A program made the position numbers and the translations under genes. Shown here one piece after another: positions 35,004-60,634 of a stretch of DNA of 64,000 bases. The notes beneath the pieces were generated by a model. The model saw only the letters and a list, made by a program, of their open reading frames with translations, ran no database searches and was not told the DNA's origin. Numbering within the stretch: the stretch's first letter is position 1; each line of letters opens with the position of its first letter. This DNA is from Morchella semilibera (taxonomy: Eukaryota; Ascomycota; Pezizomycetes; Pezizales; Morchellaceae), in NCBI GenBank assembly GCA_009192285.1, contig WBVU01000004.1, positions 186,001 through 250,000 on the forward strand, read 5' to 3'.

Positions 35004-35418
35004 AGTGCAAAAGGGCGTCATGGGGTGTCACTCGGGGTGGGGTTTCTTTTGTAGAGTGGATTACATAGCTAAATAGGGAATAAACGGTTTTTTTTGTTCT
35101 AAACTTTATAGGGGCTTGATTGTGATATCCTGCTTCTTCGCTCTGTCTGTGAAATATGTGGAAGCTGTTAGCTTCCACTTACTGAAGTGAAAAAAGAAAA
35201 AAGGAAATCGTCACGAGAAAACAGATACCAAGTAATTTAGCCCTTTACCACAGTATACCGAAGCCCGAGAACCGCGAACAACACAGTAACGCACGACAGG
35301 AGTAAAACCCCCGTCGTGTAAATAAAGTGTGCAGATCATTGGCGAGTGCGCGCTCATTGGAGCCCGCGACTGGCTTTCTGTGTAGATTGTATTGTGCGGT
35401 TGAAGCCGCGCGGAGTAA

Positions 35419-35490
35419 GGTTCTATAGTGTAATGGTTAGCACCCAGGATTCTGATTCCTGTAATCCCGGTTCGATCCCGGGTAGGACCT
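35419..35490 (+). tRNA. tRNA-Gln (anticodon CTG)
   Basis: 72 nt, no intron. The acceptor stem GGTTCTA pairs with TAGGACC (one T-G wobble). The A-box region reads TAGTGTAATGG. The anticodon stem CAGGA/TCCTG encloses loop TTCTGAT with anticodon CTG, which reads codon CAG. The T arm is CCCGG-TTCGATC-CCGGG. A T-run at about 35499-35506 downstream would terminate RNA polymerase III. Confidence 0.96.
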
Positions 35491-35866
35491 TTTACCCTTT
35501 TTTTTCTCCACACACCCCCCCCCCCCCCACAGCCACACTTTGCCCGCTGAGAAAAATTCCTGTAGTGCTGCCTCGACATAAGTACTTGATGTGTCCGATA
35601 GGGAGGAGAAAATTTTCTTAGGCTAGTTTAGTTCGTTACTCTTAGTTAAACGACATAGGTACATAAAATGAAGAGTAAGGGGGGCATTGGGCTTAAAATC
35701 CGACTGGTATTTTCTAGAATTCTAATTTCTAACTACTTGCACTTTATAACGTAAAAAGGGGCTAATCCTCCTTCATATCGACCGAAATGAAGGCGACCGC
35801 TACAACCTAACAACCATTTTCATGACTCTGCCCAAGTGTGCGGCGCGAGCAAAAATGAGGTTTGAG

Positions 35867-35938
35867 AGGTCTTGCTGGGGATCGAACCCAGATTACGGGA
35901 ATCAAAATCCCGTGTGCTATCCATTACACTACAAAACC
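35867..35938 (-). tRNA. tRNA-Gln (anticodon TTG)
   Basis: 72 nt on the minus strand, no intron. The acceptor stem GGTTTTG pairs with CAAGACC, the anticodon stem CGGGA/TCCCG encloses TTTTGAT (anticodon TTG, codon CAA), and the B box is GGTTCGATCCC. An oligo-T (plus strand AAAAA at 35851-35855) follows as terminator. It is divergent in orientation from the CTG gene 377 bp away. Confidence 0.96.
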
Positions 35939-38165
35939 GTTTTGCGACCGGCAAAAACCAATGAATAATTATGTACCACAAACGTATTAGTACTACTGGA
36001 TTTGGTTAGCCCGGGTCACCCGCAGTCACTCGTTGTGTGGCGGTTTCGGGTGTGGTGGGGCTGGTGGGGGGGGCGGGCGGTCTAGATCAATAACATCTGT
36101 CGGGTTCGGGATGCTGGGTTGGTTGATGGATTACTGGAATAGGTAAGTAATGGGCTGTGATTCGGGGTGCTTTGCTGATCCTGCTATGGGCATGAAAGCT
36201 GCGCGGTTCTGTGCTCTGCTTGTTATCGTTGGTATCGCGCGAGGGTTTGTGTGCGGTGGGCTGATAACATTTGTGTGACCATCAAACATCTACCGCGACC
36301 ACCACACGTCATCGTAGGTCCGTCACGCTCTTAACAAACTCTGGTTATATATGCCTCAATCGAATACCAGCAAACTCATCCCTTGCGTCCGTGAGTGGCT
36401 CCATCCATACACTTTCCGCCATGAGAGTGGGCATGCTAGCTCCCCCCCCCTCCGGGTGTTCAACGGGGTGGTGTATGTTTGGAGGTCTGCGGGAATGAGC
36501 AGTATATATTGCTGATAGTGGATCTCTCCACGGTGGGTGGAGACTATATGAGGTCATTGTTCATACTAGCCCTGTTGCACGCCAGGTTGAAGAATTGATT
36601 GATTGATTGATTTATTGAGTAGTGCAGCCTTCCGGCTAGGGATTAGGCTGTGAGAGAAGCTATCAGAGCAACAAATGATAGTGTTCCATCTTTTGGAGCA
36701 CTAATATGTCACAGGTGGTGATTCGGGGACAGGTAAGTTCTAGTACCGCGGGTAACTACATGCAGAGATTCTAGTTACAGGCGTGCTTTGGCAGGAGAGG
36801 GAGGTTATGGCCTATTAAATTCACTTCCATTGAGATTTATAACTCGGGATAGCCCAGCGAAGACTCTCTTAAGGATACTGCCTGAGGATAAAGCGTGCGC
36901 CGTTGACTCTATACACGGCGATAGTACTCTGGAATGGACGCTATATATGGTCTTTGTTTGGCAGTATGTTTATATTGATATTCTGCCGGGATCAGCGGAG
37001 TTATGTTCTGGTAATGCAGTTGAAATCATGGTTGCATCGGCGGTTCAGACATGTGTCTATAAATGATAGGTTGCTGGAGAACGTACCCCGACTGTTTATG
37101 GACAAGAGGGGATAGACAGCCCTCTTACAGTCTGTAAATACCTCATCAGCGGGCCAATAGTCGCCCCGGATATGATTCTGATGGTGACCCTTATAACTAG
37201 TTCTCGAAGGAGCTCATGTTCTTTCGCGCAAGAGCTGAAACTTTCAAGGCACCTTTGTCTATATCTTCTGGACTACTTTGGAAAAAGCAACTTACGGCAC
37301 CTTATTGCTTGCGGACAGTCTAGGCATCTGAATAACGTTTGTGGGTAGCCAATATCATATCATCGGCCCGCAATTACACTACACATAGCTAAGATTACTC
37401 TAAGATTCCTGCTGTGTGTAGTTTTCATATGTTAGAGCTGAATCTCCCTTACCTACACGCCTAGGTTGCCATAGCTTAAGGGCTGCATACATGTATGAAG
37501 TATAAATAAATAACTAGAGCGCCTATGTGTGTACCCAGCCCTTTAATCATACATTCTCACTCGCTAACAACGATCAAACCACAGTAACACCCACCATAAG
37601 CTCAGATGTCAATACTGGCAGATTAGCATAAATGGGTACATCCATATCCGTCAGTACCATAGCTTTCTCTATTTGTCACCTAAGAATCTGTACTCTCGGG
37701 TTCTTCTAGATGCTTGCGGGGTGGGTTTGAATGTTGTCTTACCTTATCTCACAGGAGCCTATCTTGTTGCATTTCTTGTGGATGCTTTTCAAGCACGTGG
37801 TTAAAAGATATTTTCGGGCTACTCCCGATTTTACGGCGACGGATCATAGCTTATCACTCGACTTTGATTTAACCTGATTAGGTATGGTGGGTACCTCCCA
37901 CGTGACAGCCCATTCTGTCAGTGGAGCAATTACTGAGCCAAATCTGCGTGGTATATCTCGACGTAGAGAACACTTGACTGCCAATTTCACTCGAAACCTC
38001 AGGCTCTGTAGAATGTATCTTCCTGCTACGTCATTTGGAGCATATGGTACCAAAAACAGCCTTCAATTCCCGAAAACTAGGAAAACAACCTTTACTCTCA
38101 GGTACAATTTCTGCGATCATCGCGATCGATTTAGGCTCCAAAATGCGATGTTTTTCTAGTGAAAT
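35939..38165. other. Intergenic, no confident gene
   Basis: About 2.2 kb between the functional TTG tRNA and the tRNA pseudogene. There is a short (ATTG)n run near 36595-36612, TACATGTA at 37488 and one ATCACTCG at 37853. No gene is supported. Confidence 0.5.
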
Positions 38166-38225
38166 GGAGTTGTAGTGCAATGGATTTTGATTCCCGTAAT
38201 CTGGGTTCGATCCCCAGAAAGACCT
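38166..38225 (+). pseudogene. tRNA-Gln(TTG) pseudogene with 12-nt internal deletion
   Basis: Aligned with the intact TTG gene at 35867-35938, this copy retains the acceptor-stem ends (GGAGTTG/AAAGACC, now mismatched), most of the D arm, the anticodon TTG with the 3' anticodon stem, and a perfect T arm and B box. Twelve nucleotides, covering the 3' D-arm and the 5' anticodon stem, are missing. The break lies between two GGA triplets (GGA-TAGCACACG-GGA in the intact gene). Without the 5' half of the anticodon stem it cannot fold as a tRNA. T-runs at 38241-38251 remain downstream. Confidence 0.9.
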
Positions 38226-39034
38226 GGTCTGTCTTCACTCTTTTTGTTTTTGCCCAAATACGCCCTCACCTTTGGTATTATATTGACTTCAAAACCCTAC
38301 ACATGTAACAGCCCCCCCTCCCTCAAGCAGGATTCGCCAACCAGCACGGCTTGAGCATGATACTAATGTTTCTTTTTGTTTGGCTCTGTCTTTTCTTTTT
38401 AGCCGGTCAATTCTTGGGCCATACTAAACCAATTCTGGAAACCTTGATCCGACCCCTCTCGTTCACTACATGTAGCTTGTTGGTTTGCTTGGCTCGAAGA
38501 ATAGAGTATAACGTTACACTTCTGGGTAGATAAATGTTGGATTTTATATACTTGCTAGCTAATATTCTAAATAACATGTTGCAATAAGGGAGGTTAATTT
38601 TATAATTTATCTTTATATCATCATCCGCAGACTCGTGTGATGAAAAGTGTCAGGCGGTATCGATGTGTCATGTGAATGGAGACAACGAGTGACAACAGCT
38701 AAAAGTGAGACAAATATGTATAATTACAAAACCTCCCAGTCCTCTCCTCTCTGCCCCCTTTTCATTTGTTTATTTGTTCACCCCCCTAGCTTCGTTTTTG
38801 CACTCACGGCTTGGAGTTACTTATCAGTTATCTGTCGAAATCTAATCTATAATCTCTGTAATCTGCACCATCCCATCTCATCTAATCTCCTGTACCTGCC
38901 TCTCTGAAGTGCACGCAGCACGGCAACTCCCGCATCCGGCCGAACACAACGCGTTCCCCATAAATCATTGATACCAACACCTATCAATCATCTGACGATA
39001 TCATTCCATCAGTTCACAACTATAGCCTCCAGCG
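38226..39034. other. Intergenic upstream of the kinetochore gene
   Basis: No gene is seen. The C/T-rich stretch at 38740-38770 and the C/A-rich leader up to 39034 fit the promoter and leader of the following gene. Confidence 0.5.
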
Positions 39035-58024: not shown

Positions 58025-60634
58025 TCACTCGGCCTCCTCCTCCGCCAGCCTATTATTCTTATACTCATTCTTACTCCAATGTGCGCTCCCAGCGACGAAG
58101 TTTTCTCTGACGACCTTTCCTCTCATGCCGTTCTGCCACCTGACTACCACACCCTCTACTTTCGTTCCAGGTGCAAATAGACTCTCTCTTTCCAAGAACC
58201 CCAATAGCATCCCTCTCCCCTCTAATACACCTCTATATATCTCAGGAACTACGCAGATACCACTGCCCCTCAACAGTGCTACCAAACTGTCTCGTCCGAC
58301 GAACTTTCCTGTCAAACGGTCCAACAAGTCAAAGGCTAAAAACCAACCGGGGAGCCTAGTATACGCAATACTATGTGTTGCCACCATCCACTCTCCAAAC
58401 AGCACATATCTCTCCTTCAACACCTCATCTCTTGCTAACACCTTGTACAGCTTAGGACCATATCTCTCTAGCCACCAATCTAGCTTCGAGAATTGGGCCT
58501 GATCAGAGGAGTTGATATAATGGCTACGGTTCTGTACCAATACCTTCCCTGTGGCATCAAGCGAAAAGCCAAGATTCGCGCCGTCAACCTTCTCTTCCAC
58601 TACCACCATCCTTTGGAATCTTTCCTCTAGATCGCTGCTGTCAAGAACTAGATCGTCTCGTGTTGCGGACCCAAGATCAAGTAAGTGCTTCGTCCTGATG
58701 AACTTTCTCATAGGCACCTCTCCAAACCAGCGATTTGCCAGCTCAACCGCATTCGCAATACACTTTATCCTCACAATACCAGTGAAGCCCTCATTCAGCT
58801 CCGGGGGCTGCAGGAGTTTTGCAGTACTGTCAATGGCATTCTTGACGCGGTACGGCGGCATCGTAGGATGTGGTCCCCGGCTCTCAGCACGGGACTGACA
58901 AAGCTCTGGGTCATAATCGAACCATACTGCGGTTACATTTGCACTGTAACTGAAAATCTTGACCCACTCTCTGCGTTCTGCGGGCGTTGGGTTACATCGG
59001 TCTAGAATAAGCACCTTTTTACTGCCGCGAGCGCCACCCCTCCATTGCCCCACTGCAGCCTCGCAGCTCCTTCTCGCAGACCCCGACCCGACGCCTTCTT
59101 CAGCCACGATCCCATCCGGCGAGAGGACTTCAACATTAGCATTCCGCAGCCTACACATGCTTGAAAACCCGCTCTTCCCGCTCCCCTGCAGCCCCACCAG
59201 CACCACAAAATCCGGCACCGCGATGCTCCCCCAAATCTCCATCTCCAGACCAGCAGGCTCCTCAGCCGCTCCACCATTACCAATCAATGGCTCTCCGCGC
59301 CCATGACGCTTCCATGCAAGAGAAACATAAGAGGAGATAAACCGCTCCTGATTCTCCGTCTCAATGCTCCCGCTCCGCATGCCCCGAACAGCTTTCACCG
59401 CCGCGCCAGCCGACATCATTGGCGGCCCCGCATCGCCGCCTGTCGTGAACCCAAACAGCGCCACATAGCACGCCAGCACTGTCCCAGCCCGTCCTTTCCC
59501 GCCACCGCAGTGCACGAGTGTCACGCCGCGCACGTCGGCGTCGTAGAACGGCTCTTCGAGGATCAAACGCAGGACCCGGTCCATTTGTCCTATCGTGGGC
59601 GCATAGTAGTTCTCCACGGGAACCAACGTGTTCCGTACCCCACCAGCGCTGGGGAACCATAGCGGTTGCAGCGGCGTCTCGGCTGTTAGGGTGATGATAT
59701 GGGTTACCCCGAGCTTGGTATGGAGCGTCTCGATGTCTTCCTGGTTGCGCGGTGTGCTCATAGCGCAGAGGTAATATGGCACCACCCAGGAGAAGAAGCG
59801 TGGGAGCTCGTGCTGTGGGTATAGTATAGTGTACCTAGTTCTTGACTCTAGTGTCCTCGATACCTGGCTCTCAAGCTGCAGCTCTGCGGCCCACGGCGCA
59901 CTGAGCGCCTTTATGAGTGCGGGTGGTAGTGTAGCTCTGATGTGGGACTCTTCGTCCTCGGTGAAGATGGGGCCGTACTCGGTGTATGCGTTACAGGAGA
60001 GGATCTGTTTTGTATAGTACTCTTTGCGCTTCCCTGTATCAGACAGTGTAAATGCATACTGATAGGACAGCATAGCGATCTTCCACCAACCCGCCGCATA
60101 GGAAGTATCCGCAAGCCTGACCCAGCCGCGCTCCAGCGCCGGGTATGAATTTATGATATGGACCACCCACCGCACCTGCCCCTGCACACCCCCCTCACGC
60201 AGGAAAAGCGCATCAAGGAGCTCAACATCGGCATCTATCGGCAGCGGGACACCATTTACCACCACCACCCTCTCCTCCTTCGCCGCCTCCCAGCTCGACA
60301 CCCCTCCCCCGCGTAGCACAAGCTGGAAGTCAGCAGCCCCAAACCCATGCTTGACCCGCCAGACATTCCCCGCCGGCCACAGCACAGGGACCCGCCACTC
60401 CCCTGTCTCCCCGCTCCGCGCAGGCTCCAGCACATAGATCCTCGCCGTGTCCGGCAGCGCCGTGTTCTTCCTCGCAGCGCCGTACACGCGGTACTCGGGC
60501 CCCGTCAGCAGCACCACATCCCCCACATCCCCATCTAGGCCTCGGGGCAGGCCGGAAAGCTTCAGCGCCAGCGCGCCGTCGTCTGTCACCGCTGGCGCAC
60601 CAACGCCCGGGAGCGGCTTGAAGAATTCCGCCAT
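58025..60634 (-). CDS. Tripartite RNA-repair protein: phosphatase - polynucleotide kinase-like - ATP-dependent RNA ligase (869 aa)
   Basis: A single exon of 869 codons. Residues 1-270 have no family I recognise. About 280-425 form a DUSP23-like dual-specificity phosphatase (FFSWVVPYYLCAM, GVTHIITLT, then HCGGGKGRAGT with nucleophile Cys376 and Arg382). About 475-630 form a P-loop kinase (GLQGSGKSGFS, Lys487; LILDRCNPTPAERREW; a basic lid SRAESRGPHP) of the type fused to RNA ligases. About 635-869 form an Rnl-type nucleotidyltransferase: HLLDLGSATRDDL, the adenylated Lys682 in EKVDGAN, FGEWMVATHSIAYTRLPGWF, KVEGVVVRW (motif IV) and RGKVVREN (motif V). Together these could heal and seal RNA breaks: phosphate removal, 5'-phosphorylation, then ligation. 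Trl1-type tRNA ligases have a different order (ligase, kinase, phosphodiesterase), so this is not Trl1. It is GC-rich. The ATG at 60634 has a TATA-like element just upstream. Confidence 0.85.
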   Translation of the reverse strand: MAEFFKPLPGVGAPAVTDDGALALKLSGLPRGLDGDVGDVVLLTGPEYRVYGAARKNTALPDTARIYVLEPARSGETGEWRVPVLWPAGNVWRVKHGFGAADFQLVLRGGGVSSWEAAKEERVVVVNGVPLPIDADVELLDALFLREGGVQGQVRWVVHIINSYPALERGWVRLADTSYAAGWWKIAMLSYQYAFTLSDTGKRKEYYTKQILSCNAYTEYGPIFTEDEESHIRATLPPALIKALSAPWAAELQLESQVSRTLESRTRYTILYPQHELPRFFSWVVPYYLCAMSTPRNQEDIETLHTKLGVTHIITLTAETPLQPLWFPSAGGVRNTLVPVENYYAPTIGQMDRVLRLILEEPFYDADVRGVTLVHCGGGKGRAGTVLACYVALFGFTTGGDAGPPMMSAGAAVKAVRGMRSGSIETENQERFISSYVSLAWKRHGRGEPLIGNGGAAEEPAGLEMEIWGSIAVPDFVVLVGLQGSGKSGFSSMCRLRNANVEVLSPDGIVAEEGVGSGSARRSCEAAVGQWRGGARGSKKVLILDRCNPTPAERREWVKIFSYSANVTAVWFDYDPELCQSRAESRGPHPTMPPYRVKNAIDSTAKLLQPPELNEGFTGIVRIKCIANAVELANRWFGEVPMRKFIRTKHLLDLGSATRDDLVLDSSDLEERFQRMVVVEEKVDGANLGFSLDATGKVLVQNRSHYINSSDQAQFSKLDWWLERYGPKLYKVLARDEVLKERYVLFGEWMVATHSIAYTRLPGWFLAFDLLDRLTGKFVGRDSLVALLRGSGICVVPEIYRGVLEGRGMLLGFLERESLFAPGTKVEGVVVRWQNGMRGKVVRENFVAGSAHWSKNEYKNNRLAEEEAE

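Follow-up and report, generated by a model that had tools for sequence, protein, structure and literature searches.

The gene described here from Morchella semilibera is conserved, and its sequence predicts an RNA-repair enzyme of an already-named kind, the Swiss Army Knife (SAK) type, in a variant form. Its product is best read as five modules: a degenerate 2H domain, TPR-like helices, a PTP-SAK phosphatase, a Pnkp-like kinase, and an RNA ligase (Table 1). We give a probability of roughly 0.65 to the reading that the protein repairs RNA breaks by healing and then sealing the ends.

The gene lies on the minus strand of the window, the 64,000-nucleotide stretch of DNA that was analyzed. According to the list of open reading frames and the translation, it is a single open frame of 869 codons from ATG to stop with no internal stops; the plus strand across 58025-60634 carries many stops. 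An earlier note had placed an intronless chain of 869 residues at these coordinates, and this holds, as the frame is open and no intron is needed; the strand, which it did not give, is added here. Its motifs, HCGGGKGRAGT from residue 375 (Cys376, Arg382), GLQGSGKS from 481 (Lys487), and EKVDGAN from 681 (Lys682), are all exact. When the organism's own genome (56.8 Mb, 23 contigs) was searched with the whole ORF, the one match was the ORF itself. P0002 (865 aa) is 97% identical to the window protein and colinear over its whole length, and the Morchella importuna (P0003) and M. snyderi (P0004) proteins are 71% and 70% identical over 99% of the query, again colinear end to end. These full-length relatives speak against two genes or a hidden frameshift, and both ideas were rejected. 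By protein similarity, the source lies near Morchellaceae in the order Pezizales. A promoter scan with a model built for bacteria led nowhere. Elsewhere in the window, ARAGORN placed three tRNA-Gln genes within 3 kb, at 35418-35491 (+), 35866-35938 (-), and 38148-38226 (+), with anticodons ctg, ttg, and ttg in that order; Rfam confirms the first two only.

Table 1. Coordinates in the window of the open reading frame, its predicted modules, and key residues.
Feature	Position	Strand	Basis or conservation
Whole ORF, 869 aa	58025..60634	-	Single open frame
Degenerate 2H phosphoesterase-like domain, residues 18-125	60260..60583	-	
First 2H motif place, residues 39-42, reads DVVL (HxT/S in most relatives)	60509..60520	-	Alignment
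Second 2H motif place, residues 104-107, reads QLVL	60314..60325	-	Alignment
Helical TPR-like segment, residues 137-244	59903..60226	-	AlphaFold2 secondary structure
PTP-SAK, DUSP23-like cysteine phosphatase, residues 274-441	59312..59815	-	
Phosphatase P-loop HCGGGKGR, Cys376 and Arg382	59489..59512	-	Cys and Arg in 131/131 relatives with a letter there
Asn342, place of DUSP23 general acid Asp65	59609..59611	-	Alignment; Asn 124, Asp 6 of 130
Glu425, place of DUSP23 Glu134 (backup acid, Q-loop)	59360..59362	-	Alignment; Glu in 130/131
Pnkp-like polynucleotide kinase, residues 464-637	58724..59245	-	
Kinase P-loop GLQGSGKS, Lys487	59171..59194	-	Lys in 124/127
RNA ligase domain, residues 640-869	58028..58717	-	
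Ligase motif I EKVDGAN, Lys682	58574..58594	-	Lys in 123/125

The identity of the family is given by Pfam, which matches the phosphatase part to PTP-SAK (PF22784, “Swiss Army Knife protein”; 3.6e-48, 163.9 bits, cut-off 27), with AAA_33 (42.5 bits) and RNA_ligase (101.7 bits), both above cut-off, downstream in the same chain. Three predicted folds are well matched: the phosphatase to DUSP23, the kinase to that of Pnkp, and the ligase to RNA ligases. On these matches, a phosphatase, a kinase, and an RNA ligase do share one chain, as had been claimed; the phosphatase is of the DUSP23 cysteine type, with an HCX5R P-loop and the DUSP23 fold, and the ligase segment belongs to a nucleic-acid family by both Pfam and fold. 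The label “three-domain” does not survive, since there are five modules and a family with this phosphatase had already been named by Pfam. Likewise, the N-terminal 270 residues, formerly unassigned, are readable as the degenerate 2H domain followed by the helical part. RNA repair stands as the best reading of the sequence and fold comparisons.

SAK proteins (PF22784 PTP-SAK, PF22547 2H-SAK) have PTP-SAK followed by a kinase and an RNA ligase in the relatives scanned, as here; the window protein differs in leaving the 2H-SAK model unmatched and in having lost both HxT/S motifs. Our two protein searches yielded 131 relatives (94 and 37), hence 132 proteins with that of the window, and Cys376, Arg382, Lys487, and Lys682 are all present in 118 of them; the other 14 include partial models. 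Some members show other domain sets, which may reflect either truncated gene models or true variation: P0095, P0127, P0128, P0129, and P0131 have no RNA_ligase match (three of these five also no kinase match), and P0130 and P0132 no kinase match. A passage of the jumbo-phage paper PMC7824862 credits “Swiss-army-knife” to Burroughs and Aravind 2016 and applies it to a phage family of stand-alone phosphatases placed with the HAD enzymes; the name may therefore not stand for a single thing. The literature search found no mention of PTP-SAK, 2H-SAK, PF22784, or PF22547.

The variant character of the protein lies in its N-terminal half. The two HxT/S motifs required of 2H phosphoesterases are absent, and 2H-SAK, matched in 6 of 7 relatives scanned, is unmatched; the 2H site is probably dead. 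Loss of this site recurs across the aligned family while the other active sites stay. Both motifs are kept in 78, neither in 14, and one in 6 of the 98 proteins aligned at both places (34 of the 132, lacking one or both places, were left out). Among the “lost” rows are P0090, with a poorly aligned N-terminus, and P0004 and P0097, in which one His remains but the Thr/Ser after it does not. M. importuna reads YIVL and RIPI at the two places and M. snyderi HIVL and CVPI (keeping the first His); Trichophaea and Sphaerosporella have also lost both motifs, while Choiromyces and Tuber aestivum keep both and T. melanosporum reads HIAL and HITL. Mapped onto a quickly built core-domain tree, 35 of whose 118 inner branches stay open, the 2H label changes 8 times when scored strictly and 13 times with partial losses scored as lost.

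The N-terminal half also evolves fast where the 2H site is lost. Between the window protein and that of M. importuna, identity is 50% in both the 2H and helical parts and 80%, 81%, and 87% in the phosphatase, kinase, and ligase, unlike the Tuber pair (T. aestivum and T. melanosporum), for which the five values are 80, 87, 90, 82, and 89%. Nevertheless, across 31 aligned sequences, lost-site ones included, R93 never varies and W86 is conserved in at least 90%; this speaks against plain decay and fits a retained non-catalytic role of the 2H region. A family profile of the helical segment matches designed TPR proteins, with no single stretch significant, and Foldseek with the N-terminal model gave a best E of 0.63. 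In the organism's own genome, PF22547 found no match, but neither did its control, so this silence is no sign of absence; PF13563 gave two matches, identical to each other, both weak, below the cut-off, and containing stops. The 3291 bases near 814.5 kb of C9 equal, letter for letter, those near 814.4 kb of C10 (L088, L089), which suggests that some contigs of the assembly are duplicated or homologous.

The phosphatase is unusual in its acid. Counted along the pairwise alignment with DUSP23, Asn342 takes the place of the Asp general acid expected of this type, and the Q-loop Glu is present as Glu425. Passages of PMC12848742 describe E134 as the catalytic backup in VHZ (DUSP23) and state that Asp-to-Asn variants of most PTPs lose 2 to 3 orders of magnitude. 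We infer that PTP-SAK runs on the glutamate at the Glu134 place instead of Asp. The family departs from DUSP23/VHZ both in replacing its Asp65 by Asn in 124 of 130 members and, for the window protein, in being fused to RNA enzymes. No earlier report of the recurrent 2H-site loss, or of the family-wide Asn for Asp65 with Glu134 kept, was found in the literature search.

That substitution also speaks for an unlikely alternative, in which RNA is sealed but its ends are not dephosphorylated by the phosphatase domain, which would instead be slow, a mere binder of phosphate ends, or active on protein. Its closest solved relatives, DUSP23 and archaeal or bacterial PTPs, include no RNA enzymes. However, the conservation of Cys376 and Arg382 in every relative with a letter there, and of Glu425 in all but one, is hard to explain without catalysis, and the domain is fused with a kinase and a ligase in most relatives. 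At the other extreme, the phosphatase might be specialized for RNA 2' or 3' ends, with the Q-loop Glu replacing Asp, and in morel-type fungi might also open 2',3'-cyclic phosphates, the 2H domain having decayed to a non-catalytic RNA-holding module; we regard this elaboration as doubtful. Capping enzymes trim 5'-triphosphates, and the animal capping enzyme joins a cysteine phosphatase to a nucleotidyltransferase in one chain. The window protein recalls this arrangement and might trim 5'-triphosphates to give the ligase 5'-monophosphate ends, but a 5'-OH kinase would be pointless for such ends and the best matches are to DUSP23 rather than RNA triphosphatases, leaving this idea with very little in its favor.

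The remaining core modules carry the features expected of their types: the P-loop Lys and fold of a Pnkp-type kinase, and the KxDG motif I lysine and fold of an ATP-dependent RNA ligase. Repair of breaks in DNA or RNA/DNA hybrids would suit the kinase match to mammalian PNKP (5e-18) and the “ATP dependent DNA ligase” annotation of some relatives in their source records. We consider it improbable, given that the ligase is Pfam RNA_ligase with an RNA-ligase-like fold and that relatives carry a 2H domain, a sign of 2',3'-cyclic phosphate and hence of RNA ends. Searching the PDB with just the ligase segment led nowhere. The closest solved kinases, PDB 9drz and 9d8a, are fungal and GDP-bound according to their entry titles, which hints that GTP may be the phosphate donor of this kinase type; no paper was found for either entry, nor on Mucorales tRNA splicing with an RNA ligase and kinase.

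RNA break repair by healing and sealing has parallels. T4 Pnkp with Rnl1 and bacterial Pnkp/Rnl/Hen1 likewise combine a kinase, an end phosphatase, and a ligase, with matching kinase and ligase folds, and mammalian PNKP combines a kinase and an end phosphatase; these systems use separate chains, in contrast to the single chain found here. None of their phosphatases is cysteine-based; bacterial Pnkp has a metallophosphatase. That of T4 is a DxDxT enzyme according to a passage of PMC3400036.

The genome has a splicing ligase of its own. Ligase, kinase, and CPD segments of Trl1 follow one another in that order at C6:481423-483649, and Tpt1 lies at C3:1335925-1336678; one of the two PF09511 matches is interrupted by a TGA, presumably the edge of an intron. 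Because both enzymes are present, the SAK-type protein is an additional one, and the idea that it has to serve as the tRNA-splicing ligase of this fungus was rejected. Trl1 is likewise a single chain with a ligase, a kinase, and a 2H-type domain, but in reversed order; the phosphatase-kinase-ligase order here is unlike that of Trl1, as previously claimed, and the cysteine phosphatase is extra. None of the Trl1 Pfam families (PF09511, PF08303, PF08302) is among the window protein's matches. A second splicing-type ligase, joining tRNA or stress-mRNA exons rather than repairing damage, would account for the activities shared with Trl1 and for the fungal Trl1 ligase domain listed by Foldseek. Trl1 and Tpt1 already serve the same genome, and the family is patchy, unlike an essential splicing factor, a point that is not strong with the distribution being a floor; on balance, such a role seems unlikely.

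The distribution is a floor because both searches for relatives scored only candidates sharing exact words. Among the named relatives are Ascomycota, Basidiomycota, and chytrid-grade fungi, together with a moss, a fern, oomycetes, green algae, and one bdelloid rotifer. In a second tree of 51 chosen proteins (50 from named species, some of them named from general record titles, and the window's), the 9 Pezizales proteins form one clade, and monophyly is rejected for Ascomycota (15 proteins, p-AU 8.5e-5), moss and fern (2, 4.4e-6), and Basidiomycota (21, 8.7e-23), values that are optimistic because the groups were picked after the first tree was known. Against the species tree, the ascomycete Aureobasidium clusters with a fern (Adiantum) and a chytrid (Geranomyces), and Pseudogymnoascus sits among Basidiomycota. 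This conflict with taxonomy fits gene transfer between lineages or duplication and loss, with mis-assigned contigs as a further possible source. At least 549 prokaryote loci matched the ligase, and the best segments of the best 80 are 32-43% identical to the window ligase part. These bacterial small RNA ligases (PF09414) resemble the ligase part, but in 79 of the best 80 the stretch covered shows neither a kinase nor a PTP or 2H domain of this type. A bacterial origin of the whole fusion thus finds no support among the best 80 loci of this ligase-led search. The only one of these 80 with a further domain match, a kinase by HMM, is on a Myxococcales contig (L027:3953-5979), where the RNA ligase gene adjoins an ORF that encodes both an HD domain and an AAA_33 kinase; this ORF, unmatched in the other 79 loci, is possibly a bacterial healing partner of another chemistry.

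Taking RNA as the putative substrate, repair by the SAK-type enzyme would proceed stepwise. Opening of a 2',3'-cyclic phosphate would come first, carried out in most relatives by the N-terminal 2H domain. The DUSP23-like phosphatase (Cys376/Arg382) would then take off the resulting 2'- or 3'-monophosphate of the cut RNA, the kinase (Lys487) would phosphorylate the 5'-OH, and the ligase (Lys682) would adenylate and then seal. Since a passage of PMC3400036 states that the 2H domain of Trl1-type ligases leaves a 2'-phosphate needing a further phosphatase step, the four activities together would make a complete healing and sealing set. With both 2H motifs gone from the window protein, opening probably falls to another enzyme, such as the genome's Trl1 with its CPD domain, or the phosphates on the substrates are already linear. 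Any stress or defense role is presumptive, and defense against ribotoxins or killer toxins is conjecture. Passages of PMC10809525 and PMC11258130, which do not name this fusion, report that RNA ligases of bdelloids go up after radiation or an attack by fungi; repair after ribotoxins is suggested in one of the two. No description of the biochemistry of such a fusion was found among titles and abstract openings, with subscription papers mostly uncovered.

If the proposed function is true, one eukaryotic chain would carry the full healing and sealing set, with cysteine chemistry on RNA ends, and a clean junction could result without Tpt1. Family members that have lost the 2H site offer a natural comparison for the separate roles of the 2H and phosphatase domains, and the change from Asp to Asn makes the backup-acid idea of DUSP23 testable in a natural family.
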